Made by a program: the position numbers and the translations under genes. Below are positions 1-14,807 of a DNA stretch of 19,788 nt, piece by piece. This stretch comes from Pseudomonadota bacterium (GTDB taxonomy: Bacteria; Pseudomonadota; Gammaproteobacteria; Steroidobacterales; Steroidobacteraceae): positions 1 to 19,788 of the forward strand of contig JAJZFQ010000283.1 in the NCBI GenBank assembly GCA_021805275.1. Reading direction: 5' to 3'. Position 1 is the first letter of the stretch. Each line of letters opens with the position of its first letter. The notes under the pieces are model-generated. The model saw nothing but the letters and a program-made list of their open reading frames with translations. It was not told where the DNA came from and made no database searches.

Positions 1-94
1 ACTCCTCTGACGGTGGGGATGTGGGCGTGCCTGCCCCGATCGTTCGTCCTGAAACTGGAACGTACAAGAGGTGCCGTGCGTTCGCGGCTGCGCT

Positions 95-1009
95 TCAGCC
101 TGTGGCGTACTCACAGCTCGCCGCGGCGGCCGCAGGCACCGTGGTGACCCAGCCCGGCTTCTCCGGGTGGGTGATCCCGTAGGCCTGCCCCGGAACGCGG
201 GCACCGCCCTTGCGATGCGTCAGCGACAGGTCGGTCAGACGCACCCCGAGCAACTCGGCGCGGCTCGGGTCCGGATCGGCCGGCAGCCCCGGCGGGACGT
301 ACAGGGTGCTCAGCGCATTGATGTCCTGGCGCGCCAGATCCCGCAGCGCGAAGACGTGCAGGACCGGCGCGATGTTCTCGTACGCGGAGGCCTGGTAGAG
401 CACCGCCTGGTGATCGCTCGGGTAGCTGCGCAGCAGGATGTCGGTGAGCGCACCGAGGTTGCTGCGCGAGGGGTGCGCCTCGGGCGTGAGCAGGCCGACC
501 ACCCCGATCTGCCACAGTACGAGCGGGATGCGCGCATCGATCGCCGGTTTCAACAGCACGAAGCCGGTGGCCTCGTAGGTCTGCAGACCGGGCAGCGCCG
601 GATCGATGCCCAAATCGGCCACCATCATGTCCTCGGCCGAGATCCCCGGCAGCATCTTCGCCTCGTGACCTTCGCGGCGCGCCTGCACGATCGCCTCATG
701 CGAGGGGTACACGAACACGCCGGGGTGGCCGTAGAACGCGGCGCACACCGACTGCCCCTGGCGCACCGGGGCGAGCAACGTCTCGACCATGTCCTGATAG
801 GCCCACAGCCGCGGTTTGCCGGTGCCGTGCTCGTAGTGGCGTTTGAGACATTCGGCCGACGCATTGAGCTGTTTGACGTAGCCCTCGGTATGCGGGTCGG
901 TGAGCAGATAGAAGACTTTGTCGGCCGTGAACAGGCAGTGCTCCGCTTCGCGCGTGAGCTGACTGATTGCGGTCATTCCGGTGCCGACCACGGTCAATTT
1001 TCCATTCAT
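95..1009 (-). CDS. Borosin-type alpha-N-methyltransferase (tetrapyrrole methylase fold)
   Basis: The protein has 304 residues. It is a SAM-dependent methylase of the TP_methylase superfamily: a GTG nucleotide-binding turn at residues 9-11, YGHPGVFVYPSHEA at 93-106 and PGISAEDMMVADLGIDP at 121-137. These motifs match, from memory, the SonM-like enzymes of bacterial split borosin systems (YGHPGVF..., EPGISAE...ADLGIDPG). Those enzymes methylate backbone amides of a separate precursor peptide in the cytoplasm. The ATG at 1009 is chosen because AGAAGAGG lies 5-6 nt upstream; an in-frame TTG at 1039 is less likely. After the roughly 255-residue catalytic domain comes a 45-residue tail ending in an Ala-rich stretch and CEYATG. 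No borosin-binding-domain precursor is visible on either side within the window. The gene diverges from the histidine kinase. Family assignment is confident; a peptide substrate is inference, and a different small-molecule substrate is possible. Confidence 0.8.
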   Translation of the reverse strand: MNGKLTVVGTGMTAISQLTREAEHCLFTADKVFYLLTDPHTEGYVKQLNASAECLKRHYEHGTGKPRLWAYQDMVETLLAPVRQGQSVCAAFYGHPGVFVYPSHEAIVQARREGHEAKMLPGISAEDMMVADLGIDPALPGLQTYEATGFVLLKPAIDARIPLVLWQIGVVGLLTPEAHPSRSNLGALTDILLRSYPSDHQAVLYQASAYENIAPVLHVFALRDLARQDINALSTLYVPPGLPADPDPSRAELLGVRLTDLSLTHRKGGARVPGQAYGITHPEKPGWVTTVPAAAAASCEYATG

Positions 1010-1356
1010 GGCAGCCTCTTCTGTCGTTGTGTGGGACAAAAAGCGGGCGGGCGTTCCAGGCCGGACGGCGCAGGCGTGCGCGGCGTGCGAGCGAAGCCGT
1101 TGTCGTGGCAGTGTTTCGCGAGCCGGTCCGGACCGCCGAGGCCGCCCGCGCGCCGGGCGCAGCGAGAGTCGCGGTCGCGTCCTGCGCGGGCGGTTCTGCT
1201 TTTTCCGGGGCCATAGAGATATGAGACACTTTGGCTCAGCCTTCGGGAATAGGCGCTACAACGAGTTCGTCCCTGCCATCGACGATTTCGTCCCAGCGCT
1301 CCCGAGGCGGTCTCGGTGACGGCGGAGCTCCGGACGCGCTGCGTGAGGGAGGGCCG
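1010..1356. other. 347-bp divergent intergenic region (methyltransferase / two-component operon)
   Basis: This is the longest gene-free stretch. It contains the AlgR/LytTR-like direct repeats at 1261-1294, a perfect 12-bp palindrome CGGTCCGGACCG at 1124-1135, and the Shine-Dalgarno sequences of both flanking genes. Frames that stay open here are GC-driven shadows that run on into the neighbouring genes; none resembles a borosin precursor. No convincing sigma-70 promoter for the methyltransferase was found. A weak candidate for the kinase operon is TTGGCT at 1231-1236 with TACAAC at 1256-1261, spaced 19 bp. Confidence 0.6.
1261..1294 (+). promoter_or_regulatory. Tandem AlgR/LytTR-like operator, two direct repeats 21 bp apart
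   Basis: ACGAGTTCGTCCC at 1261-1273 and ACGATTTCGTCCC at 1282-1294 match at 12 of 13 positions with a start-to-start distance of exactly 21 bp. LytTR regulators typically bind two direct repeats of about 9 bp two helical turns apart, and the known AlgR box is CCGTTCGTC-like. The repeats lie 63-96 bp upstream of the histidine kinase start, in front of the operon that encodes a LytTR regulator. They could mediate autoregulation and might also act on the divergent methyltransferase. Binding is inferred, not shown. Confidence 0.6.
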
Positions 1357-2505
1357 ATGCAAATCAGGGGCAAGTGCCGCGGGACGCGTGACGGGACGGG
1401 TCGCATCCGCGTGCCGCTGGTGTTCGTGAGCGTGTTCTGGGTGTACGTCACGGGCGTCGACCTCCTGCAGACCACGAGCACTCAGGCCGCGCTCTCGGCG
1501 ATGCGTGTCAAAACCGTATTCGCCCCCTGGGGCGCGCAGCTGATCGAGCATCTGGTGCTCTACCCGGTCCTGCTCGGCTGCCTGTGGGGCTCGCAGCGCC
1601 TCGGCTGGCGGCCGTCCGCACGGCGGGTGCCGGTGCAGCTCGCGCTCGGTCTGGGATTCTCGGCACTGGCCGCCCCGAGCCTGCTGCTCGGGGAGCTCTG
1701 TGCCGGTGATGTCGCCGCCGCTCCGCACGTGGCCGTCGCGTCGCTCTGGCGCGCTGCAGAACTGGAGGGGAGCCTGTGGCTCTCGAGCGTCACACGCTTC
1801 CTGCTCGCCTATGCGTTTGCGCTCGCACTCCTCTGGGCGTGCCGGATGGGCCGTGCGCTGCGCGAAGGCGAGACCCAGGCCGCATCGCTGCGCCGGGCGC
1901 TCTCGGCGGCGCGCCTGGCGACGCTGCGCACGCAACTCTCCCCGCATTCGCTGTTGAATCTGCTGCACACCCTGCAGGGTCAGATCGGCTGGGATCCGCC
2001 GGCCGCCCGCGAACTGGTGGCGAAGTTGGGCGAGGTGCTGCGCGAGCTGCTCTGCGCGAGTGAACGGGAGTTCTGGCCGCTCGAGGCGGAGATTCGCTTC
2101 GCGCAGCAGTACCTGGCATTGCAGCAGCATCGCTTCGCCGAGCGGCTGCGCCTGAATGTGCCGGCTGCGGCCGGGCTGCCGGGCGTGTGGGTGCCGAGTC
2201 TGATTCTACAGCCGCTCGTCGAGAACGCGGTCGTGCACGGTCTGCGTGGTCACCACGGGGCAGTGTCGATCCGGGTCGAGGTCGCGGCGGCTGGGAATGA
2301 ACTCACGTTGCGGGTGGTCAACACCGTCGCGCGGCGCGATGCCGACCGTGCCGAGGGGATCGGTCTGAGGAATGTGCGTCATCGGCTCGCGCTGCATTTT
2401 GGGGAGCGGGCGACGCTGCGCGCAGCGGCGCAGCAGCAGGGCGAGTGGACGGTGGAGATTCATCTGCCGCTGCTCGGGGTCGATTGCGGCGCACCGAGCC
2501 TGTAG
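1357..2505 (+). CDS. LytS/AlgZ-type sensor histidine kinase (His_kinase family)
   Basis: The 382-residue membrane sensor kinase has about four hydrophobic segments in its first 165 residues (VPLVFVSVFWVYV, LIEHLVLYPVLLGCL, VQLALGLGFSALAAPSLLL, FLLAYAFALALLW). There is no large periplasmic sensor domain. The phosphoacceptor region is LRTQLSPHSLLNLLHTL with His197, as in the His_kinase (PF06580) family. An HATPase_c domain follows: N-box PLVENAVVHG with Asn290, then G-box GIGLRNVRHRL from Gly334. The start at 1357 is chosen for GAGGGAGGG just upstream; a longer in-frame reading from 1231 would run through the putative operator. The gene ends 13 nt before the response regulator, so the two are cotranscribed. 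The architecture resembles AlgZ/FimS; the signal sensed is unknown. Confidence 0.88.
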   Translation: MQIRGKCRGTRDGTGRIRVPLVFVSVFWVYVTGVDLLQTTSTQAALSAMRVKTVFAPWGAQLIEHLVLYPVLLGCLWGSQRLGWRPSARRVPVQLALGLGFSALAAPSLLLGELCAGDVAAAPHVAVASLWRAAELEGSLWLSSVTRFLLAYAFALALLWACRMGRALREGETQAASLRRALSAARLATLRTQLSPHSLLNLLHTLQGQIGWDPPAARELVAKLGEVLRELLCASEREFWPLEAEIRFAQQYLALQQHRFAERLRLNVPAAAGLPGVWVPSLILQPLVENAVVHGLRGHHGAVSIRVEVAAAGNELTLRVVNTVARRDADRAEGIGLRNVRHRLALHFGERATLRAAAQQQGEWTVEIHLPLLGVDCGAPSL

Positions 2506-2518
2506 GGAGGGGAGATCG

Positions 2519-3301
2519 ATGCTGACGGCGATGATCGTGGATGACGAGGCCTCCGGCCGCCGGCTGCTGCGCGAGTACTGTGCGGCCGAGCCGGATCTAG
2601 AGATCCTCGGGGAGTACGCTGACGGGCACGCGGCGCTGCAGGCCGTGCAGATCACGCGTCCCGATGCGATCTTCCTCGACATCGAGATGGATGCGCTCGA
2701 CGGCGTGACGCTGGCGCGTGCACTCGAGATGCCCCGAGCGCCGGTGGTGGTCTTCGTCACGGCGCATGTGCGCTACGCCGCGGAGGCGTTCGAACTCAGC
2801 GCGGCGGATTACCTGCTGAAGCCATTTGATGCGGCGCGCTTTCACGACACCGTCGAGCGGGTCCGGTGGCGCCTGAGGGCCGAGCGCAGTGCCGCACGTC
2901 AGGAGTCGCTGGAGGCGGCGCTCGAGCACCTGCAGCGGGCCCGCGCGGCACGCGTTGCCCGGCGGCCGCGCCTGGTCGTGGGGACGGGAAGTGACCGGCA
3001 AGTGCTCGACGCCGAAGAGATCGAGGCGGCCTGTGCCGAGCGCAACTACGTCAAACTGAACGTGGGGTCCGAGGCACATATTCTGCGCACGACACTGCGC
3101 GCGGCACAGCAAGCACTGTGCAGCCAACCGTTGCTGCGGGTCAGCCGCTCCTGTCTGGTCAATTTCAACCACGTGCGCCGGATCAGTCGCACGCGTCGCG
3201 GCGACTACATCCTGGTGCTCAGCGGCGGCGTGACGGTGACGAGCGCGGAAGGTTACCGGGAGACGGTGCGCCGGCATCTCGAGCGGTATACGCTCGGCTG
3301 A
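2519..3301 (+). CDS. LytTR-family response regulator (AlgR-like)
   Basis: The 260-residue cytoplasmic transcription regulator has an N-terminal receiver domain (residues 1-118) with acidic pocket Asp8/Asp9, phosphoacceptor Asp54 in FLDIEM, Thr81 and Lys101 in LLKPFD. A linker rich in Ala, Arg and Glu follows. The LytTR DNA-binding domain spans about 150-255, with AERNYVKLNV, LLRVSRSCLVNFNHV and GDYILVLSGG. A strong Shine-Dalgarno GGGAGGGGAG lies just upstream. It is the partner of the kinase 13 nt upstream. The two direct repeats ahead of the operon fit a LytTR target and suggest autoregulation. Its last codons (CTC GGC TGA) form one arm of an inverted repeat shared with the convergent tspO end. 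Confidence 0.9.
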   Translation: MLTAMIVDDEASGRRLLREYCAAEPDLEILGEYADGHAALQAVQITRPDAIFLDIEMDALDGVTLARALEMPRAPVVVFVTAHVRYAAEAFELSAADYLLKPFDAARFHDTVERVRWRLRAERSAARQESLEAALEHLQRARAARVARRPRLVVGTGSDRQVLDAEEIEAACAERNYVKLNVGSEAHILRTTLRAAQQALCSQPLLRVSRSCLVNFNHVRRISRTRRGDYILVLSGGVTVTSAEGYRETVRRHLERYTLG

Positions 3302-4131: not shown

Positions 4132-5096
4132 GGTCTGTTCTCCTCACCGGACATCAGAAATACCCTTCTCGCTTGTGCGGTTCGAGCGAACCACCGGTGT
4201 CGCGATCGGCGAGTCGACCGGTGCGCTCGGACCGGCGAGAGCGTAGGGTCGCGGCGACGACCGCTGCGCGCGTCTCGGCCTCCGACGCCGCCGCCGCGGT
4301 GACCGCCCAGCGTACGAAGGCGCACTTTGCGGATCTCGGGAATCTCGGCGGGTCGCAATGGCATGCGCTGTGGCTCATCGACGACCGTGAATTGTCCGTC
4401 GCGCGTCAGTACGGGACGGGGACGGGCCAGATACAGCGGCGCCAGTTCGATGTCGTGCACCAGGTCATCGGTGAGCCCGTCGAGCTCGGTCCAGTTCGAC
4501 AGCGGAAAGACACACGTGCTCTCGTGCTGGCCGAGACGGAACTTGAACAGGTTCCACAGTTCCGGTCGTTGCCGGCGCGGCTCCCAGGTGTGGTGCGGAC
4601 CGCGCAACGAGACGATGCGCTCCTTGGCGCGCGAACGCTCCTCGTCGCGCCGGGCACCGCCGAGGATGATGTCGTATCGACCGCCATCGAGCGCAGTCTT
4701 CAGCGCCTCAGTGCGCATCACCCTCGTGTCACGATCGCCGTGCTCGAACGGGTTGACGCCGGCGGCGCGGCCCGCTTCGTTGTGATGAACGCGTAAGTCA
4801 AAGCCGTACCGGTGCGCGAAGCGGTCGCGGAACTGCAGCAGTTCGCGGAACTCCCAGGTCGAATCGATGTGCAGCAGCGGCACCGGCGGGCGCGACGGAT
4901 AGAACGCGCGGCAGGCCAGATAGGCGAGCACGGTGGAGTCTTTGCCGGCGGAGAACAGCAGGACGGGGTTGCGCGCCTCGGCGATGGCGTCGCGCAGCAT
5001 GTGGATCGCCTCGGATTCGAGTGCCGTGAGCGAGGCGCACGCGACCTGCGGCGGGGGCTCGCCCGGGCGCTGTGCCGGGGCGGCGGCGCTCGTCAT
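4128..5096 (-). CDS. cysD: CysD-like sulfate adenylyltransferase subunit 2, frameshifted C-terminus
   Basis: As read, the frame gives 322 residues. Residues 25-264 align with CysD, the small subunit of ATP sulfurylase (ATP + sulfate to APS + PPi). Visible motifs are the PP-loop SAGKDSTV (49-56), FPLSNWTELD (197-206), GGARRDEERSRAKERI (146-161) and KVRLRTLG (257-264). After Gly264 the reading is unrelated to CysD. The expected end (W.VT.A..SEAET...SERTGRLADRDTGGS, then KREGYF and a stop at 4154-4156) lies intact in another frame. That is a frameshift near 4305, most simply an 8-nt deletion. The start overlaps the dabA stop as ATGA. No cysN (GTPase subunit) is nearby, which is unusual. It may be a decaying gene, an active N-terminal domain with an altered tail, or a sequencing/assembly error. 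Confidence 0.8.
   Translation of the reverse strand: MTSAAAPAQRPGEPPPQVACASLTALESEAIHMLRDAIAEARNPVLLFSAGKDSTVLAYLACRAFYPSRPPVPLLHIDSTWEFRELLQFRDRFAHRYGFDLRVHHNEAGRAAGVNPFEHGDRDTRVMRTEALKTALDGGRYDIILGGARRDEERSRAKERIVSLRGPHHTWEPRRQRPELWNLFKFRLGQHESTCVFPLSNWTELDGLTDDLVHDIELAPLYLARPRPVLTRDGQFTVVDEPQRMPLRPAEIPEIRKVRLRTLGGHRGGGVGGRDARSGRRRDPTLSPVRAHRSTRRSRHRWFARTAQARRVFLMSGEENRP
4154..4305 (-). pseudogene. Out-of-frame remnant encoding the conserved CysD C-terminus
   Basis: In a frame offset from the main cysD-like frame, the sequence reads W-A-V-T-A-A-A-A-S-E-A-E-T, then SERTGRLADRDTGGSLEPHK and REGYF-stop. This aligns without gaps to the E. coli CysD end recalled as WPCTGAVESNAQT...SERQGRVIDRDQAGS...KKRQGYF. 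The conservation through 50 residues and a proper stop shows that this was coding recently. A 22-nt gap from this stop to the next ATG, with its Shine-Dalgarno in between, also looks like the original gene junction. Confidence 0.75.
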
Positions 5097-7579
5097 GCCG
5101 GCATCTCGGCAGGCTCGCGGACGGCGCCGGGCATGGCGGCGTGCGGTCCGCGGCGCGGATCGAACAGGCGCTCGGGGCTCTGCTCGCGCAGGCGGTAGAG
5201 GTACAGCCATTCGTTTTCGACCAGCTGCCGCAGGTCGGCCTGGCCTCGGACCACCCGTTCGATCCGCTCGCGCGGCGCATCGATGAGCACCGTCAGGCGC
5301 AGCGGCGCGTGCCGCCAGCCGGTACCGTCGTGCACGGACTGGCGGGCCAGTCCGATGCGCAGATCCCCGCTGTGTCCTTCCAGGACCCCGATGCGACCGC
5401 CGAGCACGTTGTGCAGCAGCTTGTCGCCGCTGCCGAAGCGCTGCGGATCGACGGTGGAGCCGTAGTACTGCAGGTTGATCCAGTGTGCCACGACCAGCGG
5501 GCCGGCGAGCAGTTGCTCGAGCAGCGCACCGTCAGGGTCCTCCTCGGCGCGGTACTCATGCAGGAAGGCCCGCCCCTGAAGATCGATGCCACGGGTCCGC
5601 TCGCGCGCGGCAAGGATGAACGCCGCGTTGCCCGCGAGCCCCCATTCGGGGCGCACTTCGGCCCAGTCGCGCGTGCGGCGCTGCAGCCGGCGCAACAGAG
5701 CCGTGTCGCGTCCCGCCAGATGCGCAAGCCCCAGGTCTGCGGCACGCTCGCGGCGTACCTGCGCGCCGGCGCGCCGCAGAGTGTTGTACAGACGCTCAAG
5801 ATCGGCCGCGTGGCCGGCCGGGAGGTGCGGCGGCGCGAACAGCTCGACGGTGTCGGTCACGGTGTCGTGCAGCCCGGCGATCACCACGGTGTGCTCCGGG
5901 AGGGATATGCCGTGCTCGGGGAGTGCACGGCGCACCGCAGGATCGTTCAGCAGGTCAGCCAGTGCGCGTGCGTTGACCTCGCCGCTGTGGCCGCCGCAGG
6001 CACCGCAGGCGAGCGCGGCGGCCTGCGGATTGTTGGTGGTGCGTGCGCTGTGTCCGATCAGCACGAGCAGTCGGGCCGCGGGCCGCTCGATCCCCATGGC
6101 GTGCAGGATCCGCGCCGCAAGCGGCGCCTGTTCGGCGAGTGCCTCAGGGCCACGGCGGATCAGATGCGGACGCAGCGAAGCGTGCTCGGCGCGCTTCAGC
6201 CCGGTGTGCGTTGGGATGTCCGGCGCACGGGCGAACGTGCGGGCGAGCAATTTCGCCAGGTAGGTGAGACCGAAGATCTCCACGGTGCTGAATGCGCCCG
6301 TCGGCAGACGCAAGAACGGTTGCAGGCTCGCGCGACGCTGCAGCGTCCGTTGGCGCCGCTCCGCGAGTCGTTCATCCTCGGCCGCGTTTCCACTCGTATC
6401 GCTTGCCGTGAGCGTCGGGGCGAGCAGTGCGGGCAGCTGGGGCCGCTCGAGCGAGGTCCCGAGCGGGGTGTAGCGCAGGGGCAGACCGAAGAAGCCTGCA
6501 AATCCATACGTGCGTACGTCGCCGTCGGTCTGTTCGACGGCGCGCCGCATACGCTCTGAGCGCACATCGATGCAGAAGACGAGCTGTGCGCTGGGCGCAG
6601 CGGCTTGCGGGACGGGGCGTGCCGCGTGCGCTGCGGCGAGCGCGCCGAAGAGACGCGCCTGATAGGCGATCTCGTGTGCGCGCTGCCAGAGCAGGTCGAT
6701 GGCCAGCGATGCGGGGGGCTCGGCGGCGATCGCGGCGTTCCACTGCGCGCGCCAGTCCCACCACACGGAGCGCTCATCGTCCCGCCCGTCCTGCAGCAGC
6801 GCCTCCCAGCTGAGGCGGATCACGAGCAACTGCGCCAAGTGCTCATCCTCTCCCCCGGCGAGCGCCGCCTCCCAGCGCAAGTAGGCGCACCACGCCGCCC
6901 AGCCGTCGATGCGCCGGGCAATCACTTCGAGCAGCTCGGTCCATTGTCCGTCGCGCACGGCCAGGCGATCGAGCGCCCAGTGGAGCGCCGCGTCGAACTG
7001 CTCGGGCAGCCGCGCGGCGCGCCCGTGCAGCGGCCGGAACCGCTGATCCTCGAGCAGCGCGGAGCGCCAGCCCGCGAACAGCCCGGGCCGGCGCTCAGGC
7101 GTCGCGTCTGCCTGCAGCGGGTCGAAGTAGGCCGCACAGTACTCGCTGATCTGCTGCGTGATGCGCAGGCGCCAGGGGACCGCGCCGCACCGGAGCGGGT
7201 CGGCGTCGAGCCGGTCGCTGAGCAGCGCGAGTCCGTCCGCGGCCGCGGCCGGCTGCTCGAGCGCCCGCACGGCGGCCGCGATACTCGCGACCACGGGCTG
7301 CTCGCGCAGGGCCTGCTCGAGGTGCGTCCGCTCGATCTGTCCGTGCTGCCAGGCGAGCAGGTACTGCGCGCGCGCCCCGGTCAGGGGCGCGCCGCAGAGG
7401 CGCTGCAGCCGCTCGGCCGCCGCGCCGAAGGGCAGCGCCCGATAGCCCCAGTAGGGGCTGACCGCGACCTGCCGATCGAGCGGCCAGGCGGGCGCGATGG
7501 TGCGGCAGGCCGCCTCGAGGGCTGCGCGGTGCAGACTCCGGCGGTGCTGTCGCGCCGGTGGGGTCGCCGCGCCGCTCAT
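5093..7579 (-). CDS. dabA: DabA: DUF2309 zinc subunit of the DAB inorganic-carbon pump
   Basis: The 828-residue protein belongs to the DUF2309 (UPF0753) family. DabA is a peripheral, beta-carbonic-anhydrase-like subunit thought to hydrate CO2 vectorially in the cytoplasm, driven by ion flow through DabB. Predicted zinc and active-site residues are all present: Cys336 and Asp338 in FCIDVRSE, His510 in LIGHSART, and Cys525 in ACGACGGHSGEVNARA. The spacing (C-x-D, then His to Cys of 15) agrees with that recalled for Halothiobacillus DabA. Family features such as FAGFFGLP and the LADLLND segment are also visible. The ATG at 7579 overlaps the dabB stop (ATGA), which fixes the start; the frame is open further upstream but inside dabB. 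The stop overlaps the cysD-like start in the same way. Confidence 0.95.
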   Translation of the reverse strand: MSGAATPPARQHRRSLHRAALEAACRTIAPAWPLDRQVAVSPYWGYRALPFGAAAERLQRLCGAPLTGARAQYLLAWQHGQIERTHLEQALREQPVVASIAAAVRALEQPAAAADGLALLSDRLDADPLRCGAVPWRLRITQQISEYCAAYFDPLQADATPERRPGLFAGWRSALLEDQRFRPLHGRAARLPEQFDAALHWALDRLAVRDGQWTELLEVIARRIDGWAAWCAYLRWEAALAGGEDEHLAQLLVIRLSWEALLQDGRDDERSVWWDWRAQWNAAIAAEPPASLAIDLLWQRAHEIAYQARLFGALAAAHAARPVPQAAAPSAQLVFCIDVRSERMRRAVEQTDGDVRTYGFAGFFGLPLRYTPLGTSLERPQLPALLAPTLTASDTSGNAAEDERLAERRQRTLQRRASLQPFLRLPTGAFSTVEIFGLTYLAKLLARTFARAPDIPTHTGLKRAEHASLRPHLIRRGPEALAEQAPLAARILHAMGIERPAARLLVLIGHSARTTNNPQAAALACGACGGHSGEVNARALADLLNDPAVRRALPEHGISLPEHTVVIAGLHDTVTDTVELFAPPHLPAGHAADLERLYNTLRRAGAQVRRERAADLGLAHLAGRDTALLRRLQRRTRDWAEVRPEWGLAGNAAFILAARERTRGIDLQGRAFLHEYRAEEDPDGALLEQLLAGPLVVAHWINLQYYGSTVDPQRFGSGDKLLHNVLGGRIGVLEGHSGDLRIGLARQSVHDGTGWRHAPLRLTVLIDAPRERIERVVRGQADLRQLVENEWLYLYRLREQSPERLFDPRRGPHAAMPGAVREPAEMPA

Positions 7580-9132
7580 GCGGCGCCCCGTTCGCGCGGT
7601 GCCAGCCACGGACTGAGGTGTCGCCCCGCGCTGCGCACGCCGCACCAGGGCCATCGCGACGTGACGAGCCGCGTGACCGGCTCATCGAGGAAGTACCCGG
7701 CCGCGCTCCACACGTACAGGCGTGAGTGGCGCGTCGCGGAGCCGGCGCGCCCGAGGTGTCCCTGCGCCCAGTACAGCGCGACCAGACAGAGTGCGCCGTA
7801 CAGCGCCAGCAGCGGCGCCGGGCGTGCCTGGGGGACACCGAGGCCACGGTTCATCGTGAGGTGCCAGAGCAGATACAGCTGCACGGCGAGGGCGGCCGCC
7901 AGGAAGTTGCGGGTCCGGGTGGCGAGATTCGGCACACCGTCCCACAGCAGCGTCGCGACACCGAGCGTGCACACCAGCAGAGCAATCCAGGGAACCGTCG
8001 GGGCGTGCAACACGGTGTGCCACAGGCGCGCCGAGACTGCGACCACGCCGGCGGCGACTGCCAGTCCGAGCAGCGGCGCGTAGGGTGCGCGCGACGGGGG
8101 TTCCGGTCGCATGCGCACCTCGGTGCTCTCGCGCACCGCCTCGCCGGAGCAGAGGAACGCGTGCGCCTTGTAGAGCGCATGGCCGAGCAGATGCAGCAGA
8201 GCGAGGCCGTACAGCCCCAGACCGCATTCGGCGGCCATCAGCCCCATCTGCGAGCAGGTCGACCAGGCGAGGCGCGTTTTGCGCGTCGGGCAGGTCATCA
8301 GGGTGAGCCCGGCGAGCGCCGCGGTCGTGCTGCCGACGATCACCAGCAGCCCCTGGGCCGGCAGCGATGCACCGATCAGCGGGGCGAGGCGGATCAGCAC
8401 GTAGCCGCCGAGGTTGACCACGCCCGCGTGCATCAGGGCGGAGACGCTGGTCGGCGCTTCCATGACCTGCACCAGCCAGCCGTGCAGGGGCAGCTGAGCG
8501 GATTTCAACAGCACGGCGGCGGCGAGCAGCAGCGCGGCCCACTGTGCGTCGGCGCCGGCCGCCCCGTGTGCCGCGATCAGCCGCGCCAGGGCGGTCAGTC
8601 CGAGGGTGTGCCAGCGGCGATAGAGCAGCAGCGCGGCGCCGAGCAGGCACCCATCGGCCAGGCGGCTGGCGAGGAACTTCTTGCGCGCGACGATGCGGGC
8701 CGCCGATCGCTCGCGGTAGTGCGTCAGGAGTGGGTGCAGCGCGGCGCTGCTGGCGGCCCAGGCGAGCACCAGCACGGCGAAATTACGCGCCGCCACCACG
8801 GTACTGACACCGGCGAGCGTCAGCAGCAACGCACACACGAAGCGCCGCTCGCCGGCCTCCCCGGCGAGATTGCCGCGCGAGTAGCGCGCGATGACCCAGC
8901 CCAGCAACGTGATCAGCGTCATCACCGCGGCAGCCGGACCGTTGTGCAGGCCGAATGCCAGGCCCGGCAGCAGGCGGCTGATATCCCCGGCGAGCGCTCC
9001 TGCGAGCGCGCCGCCGGAGGCCCACGCGAGCGCTGGCCAGAGCGCGCGGCGGCGCAGCGCGGCGGCGGCGGCGGCGCCGAGCAGGTACAGCAGCGGAACG
9101 AGCCAGGCGGTCCAGTGCGGGGGATGCAGCAT
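7576..9132 (-). CDS. dabB: DabB: NuoL/Mrp-antiporter-like membrane subunit of the DAB pump
   Basis: The 518-residue polytopic membrane protein has roughly 13-15 hydrophobic segments and belongs to the proton-conducting NuoL/MrpA family (Proton_antipo_M). Recognisable pieces are LLKSAQLPLHGWLVQVMEAP, TSVSALMHAGVVNLGGYVLI and LHLLGHALYKAHAFLCSGEA, which carry the channel lysines and histidines typical of the family. In DAB complexes it supplies the ion-motive force coupling for DabA. The start at 9132 is chosen because GGAG lies 5 nt upstream and the hydrophobic segments begin immediately after MLHPPHW. It is the first gene of the operon, divergent from the LysR regulator by 99 bp. Confidence 0.93.
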   Translation of the reverse strand: MLHPPHWTAWLVPLLYLLGAAAAAALRRRALWPALAWASGGALAGALAGDISRLLPGLAFGLHNGPAAAVMTLITLLGWVIARYSRGNLAGEAGERRFVCALLLTLAGVSTVVAARNFAVLVLAWAASSAALHPLLTHYRERSAARIVARKKFLASRLADGCLLGAALLLYRRWHTLGLTALARLIAAHGAAGADAQWAALLLAAAVLLKSAQLPLHGWLVQVMEAPTSVSALMHAGVVNLGGYVLIRLAPLIGASLPAQGLLVIVGSTTAALAGLTLMTCPTRKTRLAWSTCSQMGLMAAECGLGLYGLALLHLLGHALYKAHAFLCSGEAVRESTEVRMRPEPPSRAPYAPLLGLAVAAGVVAVSARLWHTVLHAPTVPWIALLVCTLGVATLLWDGVPNLATRTRNFLAAALAVQLYLLWHLTMNRGLGVPQARPAPLLALYGALCLVALYWAQGHLGRAGSATRHSRLYVWSAAGYFLDEPVTRLVTSRWPWCGVRSAGRHLSPWLAPRERGAA

Positions 9133-9164
9133 GCGTACTCCGGGGGGTTCGGACGACGCGGGGG

Positions 9165-9193
9165 AGTATTCGCAAAGGGAGTGGATCTGTAAA
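9165..9193 (-). promoter_or_regulatory. Predicted sigma-70-type promoter of the dab operon
   Basis: Read on the minus strand, TTTACA (9188-9193) and AATACT (9165-9170) are separated by 17 bp, matching the -35 and -10 consensus at 5/6 and 4/6 positions. The start of transcription would fall near 9158, about 26 nt before the dabB ATG. The region is markedly AT-rich compared with its surroundings. Confidence 0.5.
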
Positions 9194-9194
9194 A

Positions 9195-9200
9195 TAGAAT
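9195..9200 (+). promoter_or_regulatory. Possible -10 element of the divergent lysR promoter
   Basis: TAGAAT (9195-9200) matches TATAAT at five positions, and an overlapping TAAAAT at 9190-9195 does too. No good -35 is visible; TTCGCA at 9169-9174 is spaced 15 or 20 bp. The element overlaps the predicted dab -35, so the two promoters probably exclude or influence each other. Confidence 0.3.
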
Positions 9201-9205
9201 AAAGA

Positions 9206-9218
9206 GAACGAAACGTTC
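9206..9218. promoter_or_regulatory. Palindrome GAACG-AAA-CGTTC, candidate LysR operator
   Basis: Perfect 5-bp inverted arms flank AAA, centred at 9212. This is about -54 relative to the predicted dabB transcription start and 14 nt before the lysR ATG. LysR-type activators commonly bind a palindromic recognition site upstream of the divergent target promoter and repress their own gene from it. Assignment rests on position and symmetry only. Confidence 0.4.
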
Positions 9219-9231
9219 GAGAAAACAGAAC

Positions 9232-10116
9232 ATGCGAAACCTCAACTTCCGTCACCTGCTGTATTTCTGGACCGTCGCGCAGCGCGGGCACCTGACCCAG
9301 GCCGCCGCGCAGCTGCGCGTGTCGCAATCGGCCCTGTCGGCGCAGATCCGTCAGCTCGAGTTGTATCTCGGTCAGCCGTTGTTCGAGCGCTCCGGACGCG
9401 CGTTGCATCTGACGGAGTTTGGCGCCGTGGTGCTCGATTACGCCGACAGCATCTTCGGGCTGGGGCAGGAACTGATGGCGACGGTGCGCGGCGGGCTCGG
9501 ACAGCGCCAGCAGCACCTGCGCGTCGGGGCGGTTGCCACGCTGTCACGCAACTTCACGGAGAATCTGCTGCGGCCGCTGTTCAGCCGCGCGCAAGTGCGC
9601 CTGACGCTGCAGTCCGGCAGTCTTGCCGAGCTGCTCGAGCAGCTGCGCGTGCACACCCTCGATGTGCTGCTCTCCAATCGCCCGGTGGTGGCCGAGCGTG
9701 ATCGGCCGTGGCGCTGCGTGTCGCTCTCGCGCCAGTCGGTGTGTCTGATCGGGCCGCCGCGCTCCGGGCGGCGGCGCTTGCGGCTGCCGGAGGACCTGGT
9801 CGGTATGCCCCTGGTGCTGCCCGGACCGAGCAGTGACGTGCGCACCCAGTTTGATTTGTGGTGCGAGCGCAGGCGCATCAAGGTCGAGGTCGCCGCGGAA
9901 GTCGACGACATGGCGATGCTGCGGCTGTTCGCGCGCGATTCCGGCGCCGTTGCGGTGGTGCCCGAGGTGGTGGTCCAGGACGAATTGCGCGAGGGGCGTC
10001 TGCAGCGCTACGGCGCGATCCCCGGCGTGTTCGAGCATTTTTACGCGATCACCGCGTTCCGGAACAGTCCCTCGCCGCTGGTGCAGCAGCTGCTCGTGCG
10101 CACGCGCGCGAAATAG
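9232..10116 (+). CDS. LysR-type transcriptional regulator, divergent from dabBA
   Basis: The 294-residue protein has an N-terminal winged helix-turn-helix (residues 1-62: FRHLLYFWTVAQRGHLTQAA, then QLRVSQSALSAQIRQLE, LGQPLFERSGRALHLTEFG). It is followed by a LysR substrate-binding domain from about residue 90. The N-terminus resembles the NhaR-like subgroup, which often accompanies antiporter-type membrane genes. The divergent arrangement with a 99-bp intergenic palindrome points to control of dabBA, probably in response to inorganic carbon or a related metabolite; the ligand is unknown. The Shine-Dalgarno is weak (AACAGA), consistent with low expression. Confidence 0.9.
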   Translation: MRNLNFRHLLYFWTVAQRGHLTQAAAQLRVSQSALSAQIRQLELYLGQPLFERSGRALHLTEFGAVVLDYADSIFGLGQELMATVRGGLGQRQQHLRVGAVATLSRNFTENLLRPLFSRAQVRLTLQSGSLAELLEQLRVHTLDVLLSNRPVVAERDRPWRCVSLSRQSVCLIGPPRSGRRRLRLPEDLVGMPLVLPGPSSDVRTQFDLWCERRRIKVEVAAEVDDMAMLRLFARDSGAVAVVPEVVVQDELREGRLQRYGAIPGVFEHFYAITAFRNSPSPLVQQLLVRTRAK

Positions 10117-10351: not shown

Positions 10352-11287
10352 TCAGATGCTGCGGCCGTAATAGAGTGCCGAGACGTGGGTGGCCTGGGCG
10401 AAGAACAACCAGCGTTCGGTGAGCAGGCCGAGTGCGGCGCAGACGACGGCGAGCGCGCTGCTGACGAGCGGCACGCCACCGCTCGCACCCAGCAGGCTCA
10501 GCAGCAGCGGCAGAAGGAAGCCGAGCCCGAGCGCGATGCGCCGCAGGGTCATGCCGTGGCGCCGGGCGATCTGAAAGCCCATCTCGCGCAGCACGAAGTT
10601 CTCCGTGAAATGGGGTGCATCGAGCGGCCGCACGACGGTGCCGTGCGCCATTCCGATCGCACTCGCCAGGGTGGCGAGCGGTGTCTGGCGGTCGATGTGC
10701 CGCCAATAGGCGAGCTTGGCGAGCAATGCCGCGGCGGCCGCGGCGGCCGCGAGCGCCGCCGGCCACCCGCCGGCACCGATCACCACGGTGTGCAGCAGCA
10801 CGAACAGCGTGCCGCCGGAGAACAGCGCAAAGACCAGATAATCGGGCGCCGTGTGCGGGTTGTGCCACTGGCGGATCGGCTTCAGGCTCCCGTAGATCAT
10901 CGCGGTGCAGTAGACGGTACCGAGGCCCGCGAGCGCCGCCGCCGCCCCGAGGAGCCGCGTGAGCGGGGCGGCCGGTGAGTGGTAGGCGCTGGCGGCGAAC
11001 GCGAGCGCCACCGGATAGGTGAGCAGCGCCGCGACGCCCTCGCGCGACAGCCAGGAGGAGCGCCACTGGCTGAAGGCGCGCCAGGCGCGCTCGCGGCGGC
11101 CGAGGTGCAGTGCCGAGGCCGCCAGACCCGCGGTGGCGAGCACGACGACGAGGCCGATGCCGGTGAGGAGCAGGGTGGGGGCGGCGGCCGCGGCGCCCGC
11201 GGCGGCATCCAGGCCGAGCCACGCGAGCAGCCCGTAGGCGAACCCCGTGAGCGTCGTCAGCAGGAGGATCGAGGCGGCCGGCCTCAT
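10352..11287 (-). CDS. soeC: SoeC: DmsC-like membrane anchor of sulfite-oxidising enzyme
   Basis: The 311-residue integral membrane protein has about eight hydrophobic helices and belongs to the DMSO-reductase anchor (DmsC) family. Typical elements are the loop after helix 2 (LGRRERAWRAFSQWRSSWLS), REG for quinone-side contacts, and the C-terminal ERWLFFAQATHVSALYYG. It should hold the SoeAB dimer at the cytoplasmic membrane face and transfer electrons to quinone. Its ATG overlaps the soeB stop (ATGA), so it is translationally coupled. Assignment to Soe rather than another Dms-like complex rests mainly on SoeA and SoeB next door. Confidence 0.87.
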   Translation of the reverse strand: MRPAASILLLTTLTGFAYGLLAWLGLDAAAGAAAAAPTLLLTGIGLVVVLATAGLAASALHLGRRERAWRAFSQWRSSWLSREGVAALLTYPVALAFAASAYHSPAAPLTRLLGAAAALAGLGTVYCTAMIYGSLKPIRQWHNPHTAPDYLVFALFSGGTLFVLLHTVVIGAGGWPAALAAAAAAAALLAKLAYWRHIDRQTPLATLASAIGMAHGTVVRPLDAPHFTENFVLREMGFQIARRHGMTLRRIALGLGFLLPLLLSLLGASGGVPLVSSALAVVCAALGLLTERWLFFAQATHVSALYYGRSI

Positions 11288-12024
11288 CGACTCAGGGCCT
11301 TGTCGAGCAGTCGCAGCAGTGCCGCGCCGACGCCCTGGCTCGGCCGCGCCGGACTCTCCTCAGGTCCGGTCGGGAGCTGCGCCTGGCGGGGGGGCAGGTA
11401 CTTGTTGGTCGGGCGGTAGCCGAGCTCGGCGAGCAGGTCCACACCGCCGCGCTCCTCGACGAGCTTCGCGACCGGACTGTCCGGATCGGCCAGATCCCCG
11501 AAGTGGCGCGCCTTGGCCGGACAGGTCGACACACAGGCCGGTTCGCGCTCCGCTTCCGGGAGCGCCTCGTTGTAGATCCGATCGATGCACAGGGTGCACT
11601 TGCGCATCACGCCGTTGTCCTCATCGAACTCACGCGCCCCGTAGGGGCAAGCCCAGGAGCACAGCTTGCAACCGATGCAGATGTCGGTGTTGATGAGCAC
11701 GATGCCGTCCTCGGCGCGCTTGAACGAAGCGCCCGTGGGACACACCGTGACGCACAGTGGATTTTCGCAGTGCAGGCACGAGCGTGGGAAGTTCACCGTG
11801 CGTGAGCGTTCGGGGCTCTCGGTTTCGTACGAGTGGATGCGGTTGAACCACACCCCGTCCGGGTTCGCCCCGTACTTGTCGTAGTCGGGCAGGATCCCGG
11901 CCTCGCCTCCGGTGTTCCACTCCTTGCAGTTCACCGCGCAGGCATGGCAGCCGACACAGGTGTCGAGGTCGATCACGAGCCCCATCTTGCGCGCCCCCGG
12001 GGCGCGCTCGGGCAGCATCGTCAT
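11284..12024 (-). CDS. soeB: SoeB: four-cluster ferredoxin subunit of sulfite-oxidising enzyme
   Basis: The 246-residue DmsB/NrfC-like electron-transfer subunit has 16 cysteines in four groups: CVGCHACAVNC, CLHCENPLCVTVC, CIGCKLCSWAC, and CTLC with ACVSTC. They should hold four [4Fe-4S] clusters linking the molybdenum site to the membrane anchor. The segments CKEWNTGGEAG, YGANPDGVWFNRIHSYE and ELGYRPTNKYLPPR closely resemble the SoeB type described in Allochromatium. No signal peptide is present, so it is cytoplasmic. Both ends overlap neighbours by ATGA. Confidence 0.9.
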   Translation of the reverse strand: MTMLPERAPGARKMGLVIDLDTCVGCHACAVNCKEWNTGGEAGILPDYDKYGANPDGVWFNRIHSYETESPERSRTVNFPRSCLHCENPLCVTVCPTGASFKRAEDGIVLINTDICIGCKLCSWACPYGAREFDEDNGVMRKCTLCIDRIYNEALPEAEREPACVSTCPAKARHFGDLADPDSPVAKLVEERGGVDLLAELGYRPTNKYLPPRQAQLPTGPEESPARPSQGVGAALLRLLDKALSR

Positions 12025-14807
12025 GTGGGTTTCTCCGAGCGAGGCGTGATGTGCAGCGGATTGGCGTCGGGGCGCGGTGCAGTCTCATCCGGGCTGTCCG
12101 GCGAACAGCGCTCGAGCCGAACCGTGAGGTCGAACCAGGCGGCCTGTCCGGTCACCGGGTCTGAGTTGGACTGCGGCGCATCGGCGCCGTTGCCCGGCAG
12201 GAACTCCGAGATCACGTGATTGAGGAGGAAGCCGCGGGTGAACTCCGGCGCATCGTGCTTCAAGCCCCAGGCGCCGGCGCGCTTGCCGATCGCATTCCAG
12301 GTCCACACCGTGTGGCGGTTCACCCCGCTCATGGTGCGCGCCCGCGCCTTCACCCGTCCGGTGCGCGATTCGACCCAGACCCAGTCCTCGTCCTCGATGC
12401 CGAGCTCGGCGGCGAGCTCGCGGTGCAGATAGAGGCGATTCTCAGGGAGGATCTGGCGCAGCCAGGCGTTCTGCGAGCCCCAGGAGTGATACATGGCCAT
12501 CGGCCGCTGCGTGATGGCGTGCAGCGGGTAGCGCGAGCGCTCGCTCATCGCCTGCTCGAGCGGCAGGTACCAGATCGGCAGCGGATCGCAGTAGCGCGCG
12601 ATGCGCGCCCGCAGCCGCTGCGGCGGCACGCGCGCCCCGTGCCCCTCGGCCGCGAGCCGCAGCCGCTGCAGCGGTTCCAAGTACAGCTGCAGGACGATCG
12701 GCTCGGCGGAGCCGATGAACCCCATCTGCTGCGCACCGGCGAGATAGTCCCGGTTGGCGAACTTGTAGTAAAGCTGTTGCGGCGGCAGGTGCTGTGACCA
12801 GAACCCGCCGTTCTCCACGTAGCGGCGCAGCTGCTCGGGGTTCGGCTCCCCGCGCCCGACGGCGGTGCCGTCGGCACCGCGAAAGCCGGCGAGCGGGCCG
12901 ATGCCGGGGCGACGCTGATGCCGCACGATGTAATCGGCGTACGAGGCGTAGAGCGGACCGCCCCGTGCGGCGGTGAAATCCGCCAGTCCGAGCCGGCCGG
13001 CGAGTTCGATCAACACGTCCTGGAAGGGGCGTACGTCCCGTCCGGGGTCGAGCACCGGCACGCGGATGGCATCGGCCGGTCCGTGCGCCGAGCCGATCGG
13101 CCGATCGAGCAGCGAGATGCAGTCGTAGCGCTCGAGGTAGGTCGTATCGGGCAACACCAGATCGGCGTAGGCGACCGTCTCGGAGGCGAACGCGTCGGCC
13201 ACCACCACGAACGGGATGCGGTACTCCCCGTGCGCATCGGTGGCGCACAACATGCGGGTCGTCTCACCGGGGTTCATGGCCGAGTTCCACGCCATGTTGG
13301 ACATGAAGAGGAACAGCGTGTCGATTTTCTGCGCGCCGGCCTCGAAGGCCCGCGCGATCGCCATGTGCATCAGGCCGTGGATGGCGAGCGGTGCCTCCCA
13401 GGAGAAGGCCCGGTCGAGCCGCAGCGCCTCGCCCTCCTCATCGACCAGCAGATCCTGCGGGCCGAGCGGAAAGCCGAGCGGTGCGGCATCGAGCGGCGTG
13501 CCCGGCGGCCCGACGGTGCGTCCCGGGGGGCCGCCGCCCGGGATGGGCTTCGGGTACGGGGACTTGTAGCGCCACGAGCCGGGCGTGTCGACCGCACCGA
13601 TGAGCATCTGCAACACGTGGATCGCGCGGCAGGAATGGAATCCGTTCGAGTGCGCCGAGATCCCGCGCATGGCGTGCATGGCCACCGGGCGGCCGACCAT
13701 GCGCTCGTGACGGCGGCCGGCGGTGTCGGTCCAGGGCTGCTCGAGCACCACGGGGTGACGGAAGGCGGCCTCTGCGATCTGCGCGGCCAGGCGGCGAATG
13801 ATGGCGGCATCGACGCCGCAGCGCGCCGCGACGGCCTCCGGGGCATAACTCGCCTCGCTGTAGCGCTCGGCGAGCAGTGCGAACGCCGGACGGGCGGCAC
13901 GGCCATCGGGGAGCGTGAAGCGCCCCATGAGCGCCGGATCGATGTTGAGGGACTCGGCCGCAACGAGCGTAGCCGCGGTGCGATCGAAGGCGAGTGGACG
14001 GCCCTCGGCGTCGCGCGCGATCAGGCCGTGCTCGGCACTGCCCGGCGCATCGATGACGAGATGGTGCGCGTTGGTGTAGCGCACCAGGAACTCGGTGTCG
14101 ATCTGTCCGGCCTCGAGCAGGCAGTGGATGAGGGCGAGCACCAGCAGCCCGTCGGTGCCCGGGGTGACGGCGATGAACTCATCGGCGATCGCCGAGTAAC
14201 CGGTGCGCACCGGGTTGAATGAGACGATTTTCGCCCCGCGGGCCTTCAGGCGCGCAAGGCCGAGTTTGATCGGGTTGGAATCATGGTCCTCGGCGACGCC
14301 GAACAACAGAAACAGCCGCGCGTGCTCCCAGTCCGGCTCACCGAACTCCCAGAACGCCCCGCCGAGCGAATACAGCCCCGCGGCGGCCATGTTCACCGAG
14401 CAGAACCCGCCGTGGGCGGCGAAGTTGATGGTGCCGAACATGCGCGCGAAGTGTCCGGTGAGGGACTGGGACTGGTCGCGCCCGGTGAACAGCGCGAGGC
14501 GATTCGGATCGCTCGCGCGGATCGCCGTCAGCCGCTCGGTGAGCAGTCGCAGGGCCTCCTCCCAGGAGATCGCCTCGAACGCGCCCGAGCCGCGCGGACC
14601 GGTGCGCTTCAGCGGGGTACTGAGGCGCGCCGGGGACAGCGCCGTCATGATCCCGGCCGAGCCCTTGGCGCACAGCACCCCCCGATTGATCGGGTGGTCG
14701 CGGTTGCCCTCGATGTAGCGCAGCCGGCCGTCCTCCAGGTGCACCTTGATGCCGCAGCGGCACGCGCACATGTAACAGGTGGTGTGCGCGACCGATTTGA
14801 CGCTCAT
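12021..14807 (-). CDS. soeA: SoeA: molybdopterin catalytic subunit of cytoplasmic sulfite dehydrogenase
   Basis: The 928-residue protein is of the DMSO-reductase superfamily. It is predicted to oxidise sulfite to sulfate in the cytoplasm and feed electrons to quinone. The N-terminal [4Fe-4S] motif is C11-x2-C14-x3-C18 with Cys46. The candidate molybdenum ligand is Cys136 in HGGFCSVNMA. Molybdopterin-binding segments (FGVAEDHDSNPIKL, FNPVRTGYSAIADEF, VVADAFASETVAYADLVLPD) follow. The C-terminal dinucleotide-binding domain includes HAITQRPMAMYHSWGSQNAWLRQI. There is no Tat signal, as expected for SoeA and unlike periplasmic polysulfide or thiosulfate reductases, which are the main alternatives. 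The start has GAGGGG upstream, and the stop overlaps soeB. No dedicated chaperone gene lies in the operon. Confidence 0.88.
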   Translation of the reverse strand: MSVKSVAHTTCYMCACRCGIKVHLEDGRLRYIEGNRDHPINRGVLCAKGSAGIMTALSPARLSTPLKRTGPRGSGAFEAISWEEALRLLTERLTAIRASDPNRLALFTGRDQSQSLTGHFARMFGTINFAAHGGFCSVNMAAAGLYSLGGAFWEFGEPDWEHARLFLLFGVAEDHDSNPIKLGLARLKARGAKIVSFNPVRTGYSAIADEFIAVTPGTDGLLVLALIHCLLEAGQIDTEFLVRYTNAHHLVIDAPGSAEHGLIARDAEGRPLAFDRTAATLVAAESLNIDPALMGRFTLPDGRAARPAFALLAERYSEASYAPEAVAARCGVDAAIIRRLAAQIAEAAFRHPVVLEQPWTDTAGRRHERMVGRPVAMHAMRGISAHSNGFHSCRAIHVLQMLIGAVDTPGSWRYKSPYPKPIPGGGPPGRTVGPPGTPLDAAPLGFPLGPQDLLVDEEGEALRLDRAFSWEAPLAIHGLMHMAIARAFEAGAQKIDTLFLFMSNMAWNSAMNPGETTRMLCATDAHGEYRIPFVVVADAFASETVAYADLVLPDTTYLERYDCISLLDRPIGSAHGPADAIRVPVLDPGRDVRPFQDVLIELAGRLGLADFTAARGGPLYASYADYIVRHQRRPGIGPLAGFRGADGTAVGRGEPNPEQLRRYVENGGFWSQHLPPQQLYYKFANRDYLAGAQQMGFIGSAEPIVLQLYLEPLQRLRLAAEGHGARVPPQRLRARIARYCDPLPIWYLPLEQAMSERSRYPLHAITQRPMAMYHSWGSQNAWLRQILPENRLYLHRELAAELGIEDEDWVWVESRTGRVKARARTMSGVNRHTVWTWNAIGKRAGAWGLKHDAPEFTRGFLLNHVISEFLPGNGADAPQSNSDPVTGQAAWFDLTVRLERCSPDSPDETAPRPDANPLHITPRSEKPT

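Follow-up and report, generated by a model that had tools for sequence, protein, structure and literature searches.

We identified a probable split borosin system at the left end of the window, the 19,788-nucleotide stretch of a Steroidobacteraceae contig analysed here. A borosin-class α-N-methyltransferase (positions 95–1009, minus strand) would methylate, in trans, the backbone nitrogens of the hydrophobic C-terminal core (approximately the last 7–10 residues) of a separate 48-residue precursor, which appears to be encoded around 100 bp downstream of the enzyme, just past the window edge. The precursor leader of about 40 residues would take over the role of the helical borosin-binding domain (BBD) that is usual in these systems. 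A divergent kinase of the LytS/AlgZ type and its LytTR regulator would control the enzyme–precursor pair through a box (1259–1296) located between the two gene pairs. Because the same box occurs at lasso-peptide clusters of several related genomes, both ribosomally produced peptides are probably under one regulator. We consider this overall reading likely.

One side of the locus seems ordinary, as a borosin enzyme whose neighbouring precursor lies just out of view. The unusual side is a putative precursor family that is fixed in length, very short and devoid of a detectable binding domain, together with the probable sharing of a regulator by borosin and lasso genes. There is demand for borosin enzymes that could serve as backbone N-methylation tools; if our reading is correct, a BBD-less precursor of 48 residues would represent a second way to hold the substrate, one that is small and easy to vary. 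The conserved neighbouring regulator, which probably also governs the lasso cluster, would offer a testable setting for the role of split borosins, for which the literature passages available to us name no biological function. Our literature searches, assessed on result lists and the opening lines of abstracts, returned no paper that connects quorum sensing with borosins or lasso clusters with LytTR regulators, which does not prove that none exists.

The methyltransferase and its putative 48-residue partner

The enzyme gene runs from an ATG at 1007–1009 to a TGA at 95–97 and encodes 304 amino acids. The first-pass annotation had called the product borosin-like on the basis of the motifs YGHPGVF and PGISAEDMMVADLGIDP; both are present, and both coincide with the best-conserved stretches in an alignment of 69 relatives. 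When the sequence was compared with those of the Protein Data Bank (phmmer), the best match was MroMA (2.5e-52), followed by dbOphM, OphMA and SonM (3.2e-43), confirming that assignment. An AlphaFold model built from the 69-sequence alignment (pLDDT 84.9, pTM 0.81) is closest in structure searches to SonM (7ltc; E 1.6e-30, TM-score 0.93 by target length). Residues R67, Y71 and Y93, which correspond by number and spacing to the SonM residues whose mutation is described in passages of PMC8429565 as lowering catalytic efficiency, are invariant among the 69 relatives, and Y59, conserved in at least 90% of them, is the likely counterpart of SonM Y58 by the same reckoning. Sequence and model thus agree in making the enzyme borosin-class, and not a cobalamin or siroheme methylase.

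Twelve database proteins of 515–531 amino acids (P0014–P0025), some of them named from Gemmatimonadota and Thermoanaerobaculia, each match the methyltransferase twice in tandem. They seem to carry two borosin-type methyltransferase domains per chain and may thus be a covalently linked equivalent of the usual homodimer.

No precursor is recognizable in the window, as had been noted earlier: the 347-bp non-coding stretch at 1010–1356 contains none, and the 94-bp stretch at 1–94 holds only a ribosome-binding site. The first-pass annotation had offered two ways out, a precursor beyond the left edge or an unlinked or unknown substrate. The former is what we see in the closest comparison genome, G001, which has 88% of sampled words in common with the window and an enzyme that is 99.7% identical, and the latter is not needed. 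A small open reading frame (ORF) downstream of the enzyme surfaced when ORFs were compared between borosin loci; in G001 it comprises 48 codons (G001:C24:10876–11022) and reads MTMRTPVSDIEIGSSGRVLYRDGPSHRLLRANETALSPETKVVIVLVL. Transferred from G001 to the genome of the window, the gene would start about seven bases left of the edge, with its ATG at about −6 to −4. As it begins beyond the edge, only its Shine–Dalgarno sequence, AGAGGAGT (1–8, minus strand), a purine-rich ribosome-binding site that stands before the precursor ATG, would fall within the window. Between this site and the enzyme stop lies a spacer (9–94); from stop to precursor the distance is 107–145 nt in the seven relatives that we measured.

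Nine loci yielded nine such peptides, each of exactly 48 residues and aligning without gaps, and a tenth was found in G007. In a survey of 58 genomes of the genus, the window-type enzyme is present in 10 and a more distant borosin enzyme in 3; the precursor accompanies the window-type enzyme in all ten genomes, always with 48 codons (that of G009 was read from locus L006, whose enzyme shares its contig coordinates). When 200 family genomes were searched, the precursor turned up in seven, all seven of which are also enzyme-positive. The protein database contains 16 relatives, or 18 when a larger alignment is used for the search; all have 48 amino acids and are unnamed or labelled ‘hypothetical protein’. 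Among viral contigs, none of the 33 pattern stretches encodes a relative.

Across 36 pairs of precursor genes, codon changes number 631, 495 and 752 at the first, second and third positions, so that the third changes most. The dN/dS ratio is below 1 in 31 of the pairs and above 1 in five, four of which involve L007, the most divergent peptide. The residues R4, G13, G16, R17, R30, A31 and P38 of the leader are invariant in 20 aligned precursors. At the C terminus the peptides end in a mostly aliphatic run (VVIVLVL, VVVVLVL, IIVVVVI, ISITIVL or ITVVLVA), which looks as expected of a borosin core. In the 10 positive genomes, then, a ribosomal precursor with a putative hydrophobic core stands adjacent to the enzyme. 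Directly after the precursor of L024 (10741–10880, minus strand), and also in L009, there is a roughly 20-bp inverted repeat (CAGGTTGGGGTGCGCGTCCC...) with a very stable predicted fold, which may be a terminator or a REP-like element.

The precursor and the binding domain

The first-pass annotation had expected an ORF of 60–120 codons with a borosin-binding domain, and a search on those terms would miss the gene, because it has 48 codons and no detectable domain. The precursor matches no Pfam family at an E-value of 0.1 and does not align to a profile of canonical-looking precursors, which was built from five sequences only. Its structural model, of low confidence (pLDDT 70.6, pTM 0.43), has three short strands and no helical bundle. 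No LigA/BBD protein encoded elsewhere in G001 exceeds the cut-off (best E 0.63). By these limited tests, the helical binding domain that defines the precursors of type IV split borosins was not found; when two canonical-looking precursors were put through the same Pfam scan, that of L011 matched LigA below the cut-off (4.4e-4) and that of L069 matched nothing.

These canonical-looking precursors come from 16 loci with more distant borosin enzymes, five of which (L011, L012, L013, L020 and L069) have, as judged by eye, a precursor of 74–95 residues; L018 may be a sixth, and a codon-bias filter may hide more. In L069 (G068), the 95-residue example lies downstream of the enzyme (1087–1374, minus strand) and is followed by more ORFs that, by eye, resemble it and might be tandem precursors.

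We therefore read the locus, from its genes, as a probable split borosin whose precursor is unusually small and lacks a detectable binding domain. A published scheme (PMC11395268) includes a ‘Class 4’ in which enzyme and core are separate and no BBD has been identified. The window locus, with its separate enzyme and a core without a BBD in the cluster, has the features of this class, and its architecture was therefore already foreseen.

A LytTR-type box at borosin and lasso-peptide genes

The enzyme gene is separated by a divergent control region (1010–1356) from a histidine kinase of the LytS/AlgZ type (382 amino acids, 1357–2505, plus strand; start placed by eye after GGAGGG, within a longer ORF from 1231) and a LytTR response regulator (260 amino acids, 2519–3301, plus strand; assigned by domain matches). 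The best NCBIfam model for the regulator is BtsR, with a score of 131.9 against a cut-off of 246. The divergent AlgZ/AlgR-like partner that the first-pass annotation had singled out as unusual is thus real; the conserved box between the gene pairs, and its recurrence at lasso clusters, had gone unnoticed.

Further along the window, genes at 5093–9516 (minus strand) encode DabA (PF10070) together with a protein of the Proton_antipo_M family that is probably DabB; adjoined by a LysR gene (9232–10116), they appear to form an inorganic-carbon uptake locus. A gene pair at 11284–14807 (minus strand) encodes a 4Fe–4S dicluster protein and a molybdopterin oxidoreductase, and a protein of 1,181 residues, in which beta-propeller repeats come after a GH92 domain, occupies 15068–18613 (minus strand).

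The box, CAACGAGTTCGTCCCTGCCATCGACGATTTCGTCCCAG (1259–1296, plus strand), is a direct repeat whose period is 21 bp, recognized by conservation and matrix scores. It is nearly unchanged across 10 intergenic regions that otherwise mostly align poorly, with one half-site altered (degenerate) in L007. Scored with a leave-one-out weight matrix, the ten sites reach 30.8–63.9, compared with a maximum of 1.7 among 61 reversed controls. LytTR regulators, according to the available passages of PMC6193735, recognize 9-bp direct repeats that are mostly 12 bp apart and often lie about 10 bp before a −35 element. Direct repeats of about this period (21–22 bp) near a promoter are what we find here, and the neighbouring LytTR regulator probably binds the box.

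The exact box pattern occurs in 13 of the 58 genomes, nine of them borosin-positive and four with background-like matches; the same pattern read backwards gives five matches in three genomes. With three mismatches allowed, in 20 chosen genomes (the 10 positives and 10 of the 45 without any borosin match), the box is found in all 10 borosin-positive genomes, and two of the 10 negatives have one weak match each; the control gives three matches. A repeat search of G001 returned three sites: the enzyme-side box, a near-identical copy on contig C66 and a probable chance match. In this last (C12:40639) the CCC ends are missing, and tblastn shows neither a borosin nor a kinase or lasso gene nearby; we discarded it, as we did the single boxes in G060, G019, G006 and G071, likewise attributed to chance. 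G007 has a third, tandem copy amid unnamed ORFs (C29:89301–89354; L180, L182).

The C66 copy of G001 has a lasso-peptide B gene on one side and, on the other, a divergent ORF that is followed by an ABC exporter. A lasso B gene is present in eight borosin-positive genomes, and five of these (G001, G024, G021, G059 and G007) carry the box at the lasso cluster, with scores of 35.8–53.9. G052, in which the box sits at one contig end and the lasso genes at another, very probably does too (6 of 8); the clusters of G054 and G025 have no box. In borosin-negative genomes, among which G011, G068 and G070 were entered despite their distant borosin enzyme, the box is present at none of 33 lasso loci in 23 genomes (top score −2.4). 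The 8 positive and 33 negative loci scored account for every one of the 46 rows that pass the family cut-off, the count leaving out two rows below it (G015:C111 and G064:C17), and several of the loci end at contig ends. Fisher’s test of 5/8 against 0/23 gives a p value of 3.3e-4 when genomes are treated as independent. As the borosin-positive genomes form one clade, the association does not represent eight independent events, and we do not rely on this value.

Assignment of these clusters as lasso loci is based on three things: NCBIfam lasso_biosyn_B2, which scores over its cut-off; a cyclase of Asn-synthase-like type and an isopeptidase resembling Atxe2, which both fall below theirs; and, in six genomes, ORFs of 29–30 residues that have a strong ribosome-binding site and Gly1 and Glu8 in the putative lasso core. 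Lasso peptides follow a Gly–Glu ring rule. In G001, G024 and G021, the repeat (taken as ACGAACTCG) ends 12 bp before a TTGACA at the lasso promoter. In G059, G007 and G052, the box lies about 260 nt further up from the lasso genes in the other orientation, and its target there could instead be the divergent exporter arm. The G001 locus (L039, 8521–18531, on C66) is two-armed: behind the ABC exporter, another lasso B2 gene is arranged divergently together with an ORF that resembles a cyclase. The locus is flanked by genes for a TonB receptor, an ECF sigma factor and an isopeptidase-like protein. An ORF of 340–385 residues lies between box and exporter (L039, 9946–11067; similar ones in L112, L100 and L059). 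It resembles a REP-associated transposase by eye, and Pfam gives only a weak match to the DnaA C-terminal domain.

Regulator orthologues occur in 36 of the 58 genus genomes, borosin-negative ones included. The 20 regulator loci that we examined come from 20 of these 36 genomes and include a single borosin-positive one, L158. Opposite the kinase, 15 of 17 borosin-negative loci have an urcA-like gene facing it; of the other two loci, one is a contig end and one is divergent. The urcA family was confirmed for two of these genes (1.5e-17 and 2.9e-21), and none of nine borosin-positive loci has one. A kinase tree covering 7 of the 10 positive genomes and 17 negative loci places the borosin-positive kinases in one clade (support 100/99), and they therefore probably have one origin. 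The simplest reading is that borosin genes replaced urcA once, beside an older two-component system, and that within this clade the lasso cluster carries the same box.

Alternative readings and known systems

It is possible, although unlikely, that the box serves only to autoregulate the kinase operon, with neither the borosin genes nor the lasso cluster under common control. The box sits nearer the start of the kinase, at a fixed distance, whereas its distance to the enzyme varies; there is no TTGACA on the enzyme side and no clear promoter was identified there, and the box may therefore serve the kinase operon alone. Diverged boxes that precede the kinase in many genomes without the borosin (scores up to 30.2) point the same way. 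Against this, the near-identical boxes at lasso clusters occur solely in borosin-positive genomes, in three of them 12 bp before TTGACA.

More speculatively, the methylated hydrophobic peptide could be an exported signal for the neighbouring membrane kinase, activating its own genes and the lasso cluster in an Agr-like manner. Such a Gram-negative LytTR circuit, with a backbone-N-methylated borosin peptide from a BBD-less 48-residue precursor as its autoinducer and a lasso cluster switched in trans, strikes us as improbable. It would fit the adjacency of borosin and kinase–regulator genes in every positive locus examined, the recurrence of the box at the lasso cluster and the control of peptide bacteriocins by LytTR regulators elsewhere (passages of PMC6193735). 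The sensor half of the kinase, with a mean identity of only 41% between borosin-positive and borosin-negative groups, is compatible with a changed signal, without proving one. However, this divergence exceeds that within the groups (59% and 50%) only modestly, and identity falls in the kinase half too, from 66% and 70% within groups to 57% between them. Kinase and regulator orthologues also exist without borosin genes, facing urcA instead, so that the pair is not tied to the peptide gene as in an Agr-like circuit (regulator in 36 of 58 genomes, window-type enzyme in 10), and no exporter or protease was found at the borosin genes.

There is a very small chance that, in the manner of fused borosins, the substrate of the enzyme is its own C-terminal tail and the small ORF is something else. 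Beyond residue 256 or so, the tail is conserved among close relatives only, which share the motif AYGITHPEKPGWV there, and it is modelled at low confidence. Its far end, however, varies in both length and sequence, and the 48-codon ORF with its hydrophobic C terminus is present in 10 of 10 genomes. A small-molecule methylase of the cobalamin, siroheme or YabN type can practically be dismissed: the Pfam match is to the whole TP_methylase superfamily and NCBIfam YabN and Cob models score far below cut-off, but the enzyme is nearer to borosin enzymes than to Cob, Cbi or CysG proteins in our comparisons, its borosin match being some 50 orders of magnitude stronger than that to the best cobalamin methylase chain (CbiF, the top tetrapyrrole methylase, at 0.0094 against 2.5e-52 for MroMA), and its predicted fold matches SonM.

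The split borosin that we favour, with its shared regulator, can be set beside several known systems. Like isopeptidase lasso clusters, L039 combines lasso_biosyn_B2, an Asn-synthase-like cyclase, an Atxe2-like hydrolase, a TonB receptor and an ABC exporter; unlike them it carries a LytTR-type box, and its isopeptidase and cyclase models are below cut-offs. AlgZ/AlgR and BtsS/BtsR have the same His_kinase and Response_reg–LytTR domains as the pair described here, which stands beside a locus for a ribosomally produced peptide. In Gram-positive LytTR bacteriocin systems (passages of PMC6193735), 9-bp direct repeats about 12 bp apart likewise precede the −35 element of peptide genes; here, in contrast, the kinase–regulator pair is of the AlgZ/AlgR kind and the predicted products are a borosin and a lasso peptide.

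Among borosins, the fused fungal enzymes OphMA and MroMA give the best match to the enzyme domain, but carry the core in the same chain, whereas here it would be on a separate peptide. The ‘Class 4’ borosins have the same architecture as the window locus, and the Figure 1 legend of PMC11395268 names no comparable precursor family. The closest parallel in organization is SonM/SonA, the type IV system of Shewanella oneidensis as presented in passages of PMC8429565. SonA-type precursors have about 75 residues and a five-helix binding domain (SonA 1–53), whereas window-type precursors have 48 and none was detected; the tail of the window enzyme is longer than that of SonM. The two enzymes nevertheless have in common their fold and the residues R67, Y71 and Y93, and each is encoded separately from an adjacent small precursor with a C-terminal core, putative in the case of the window.
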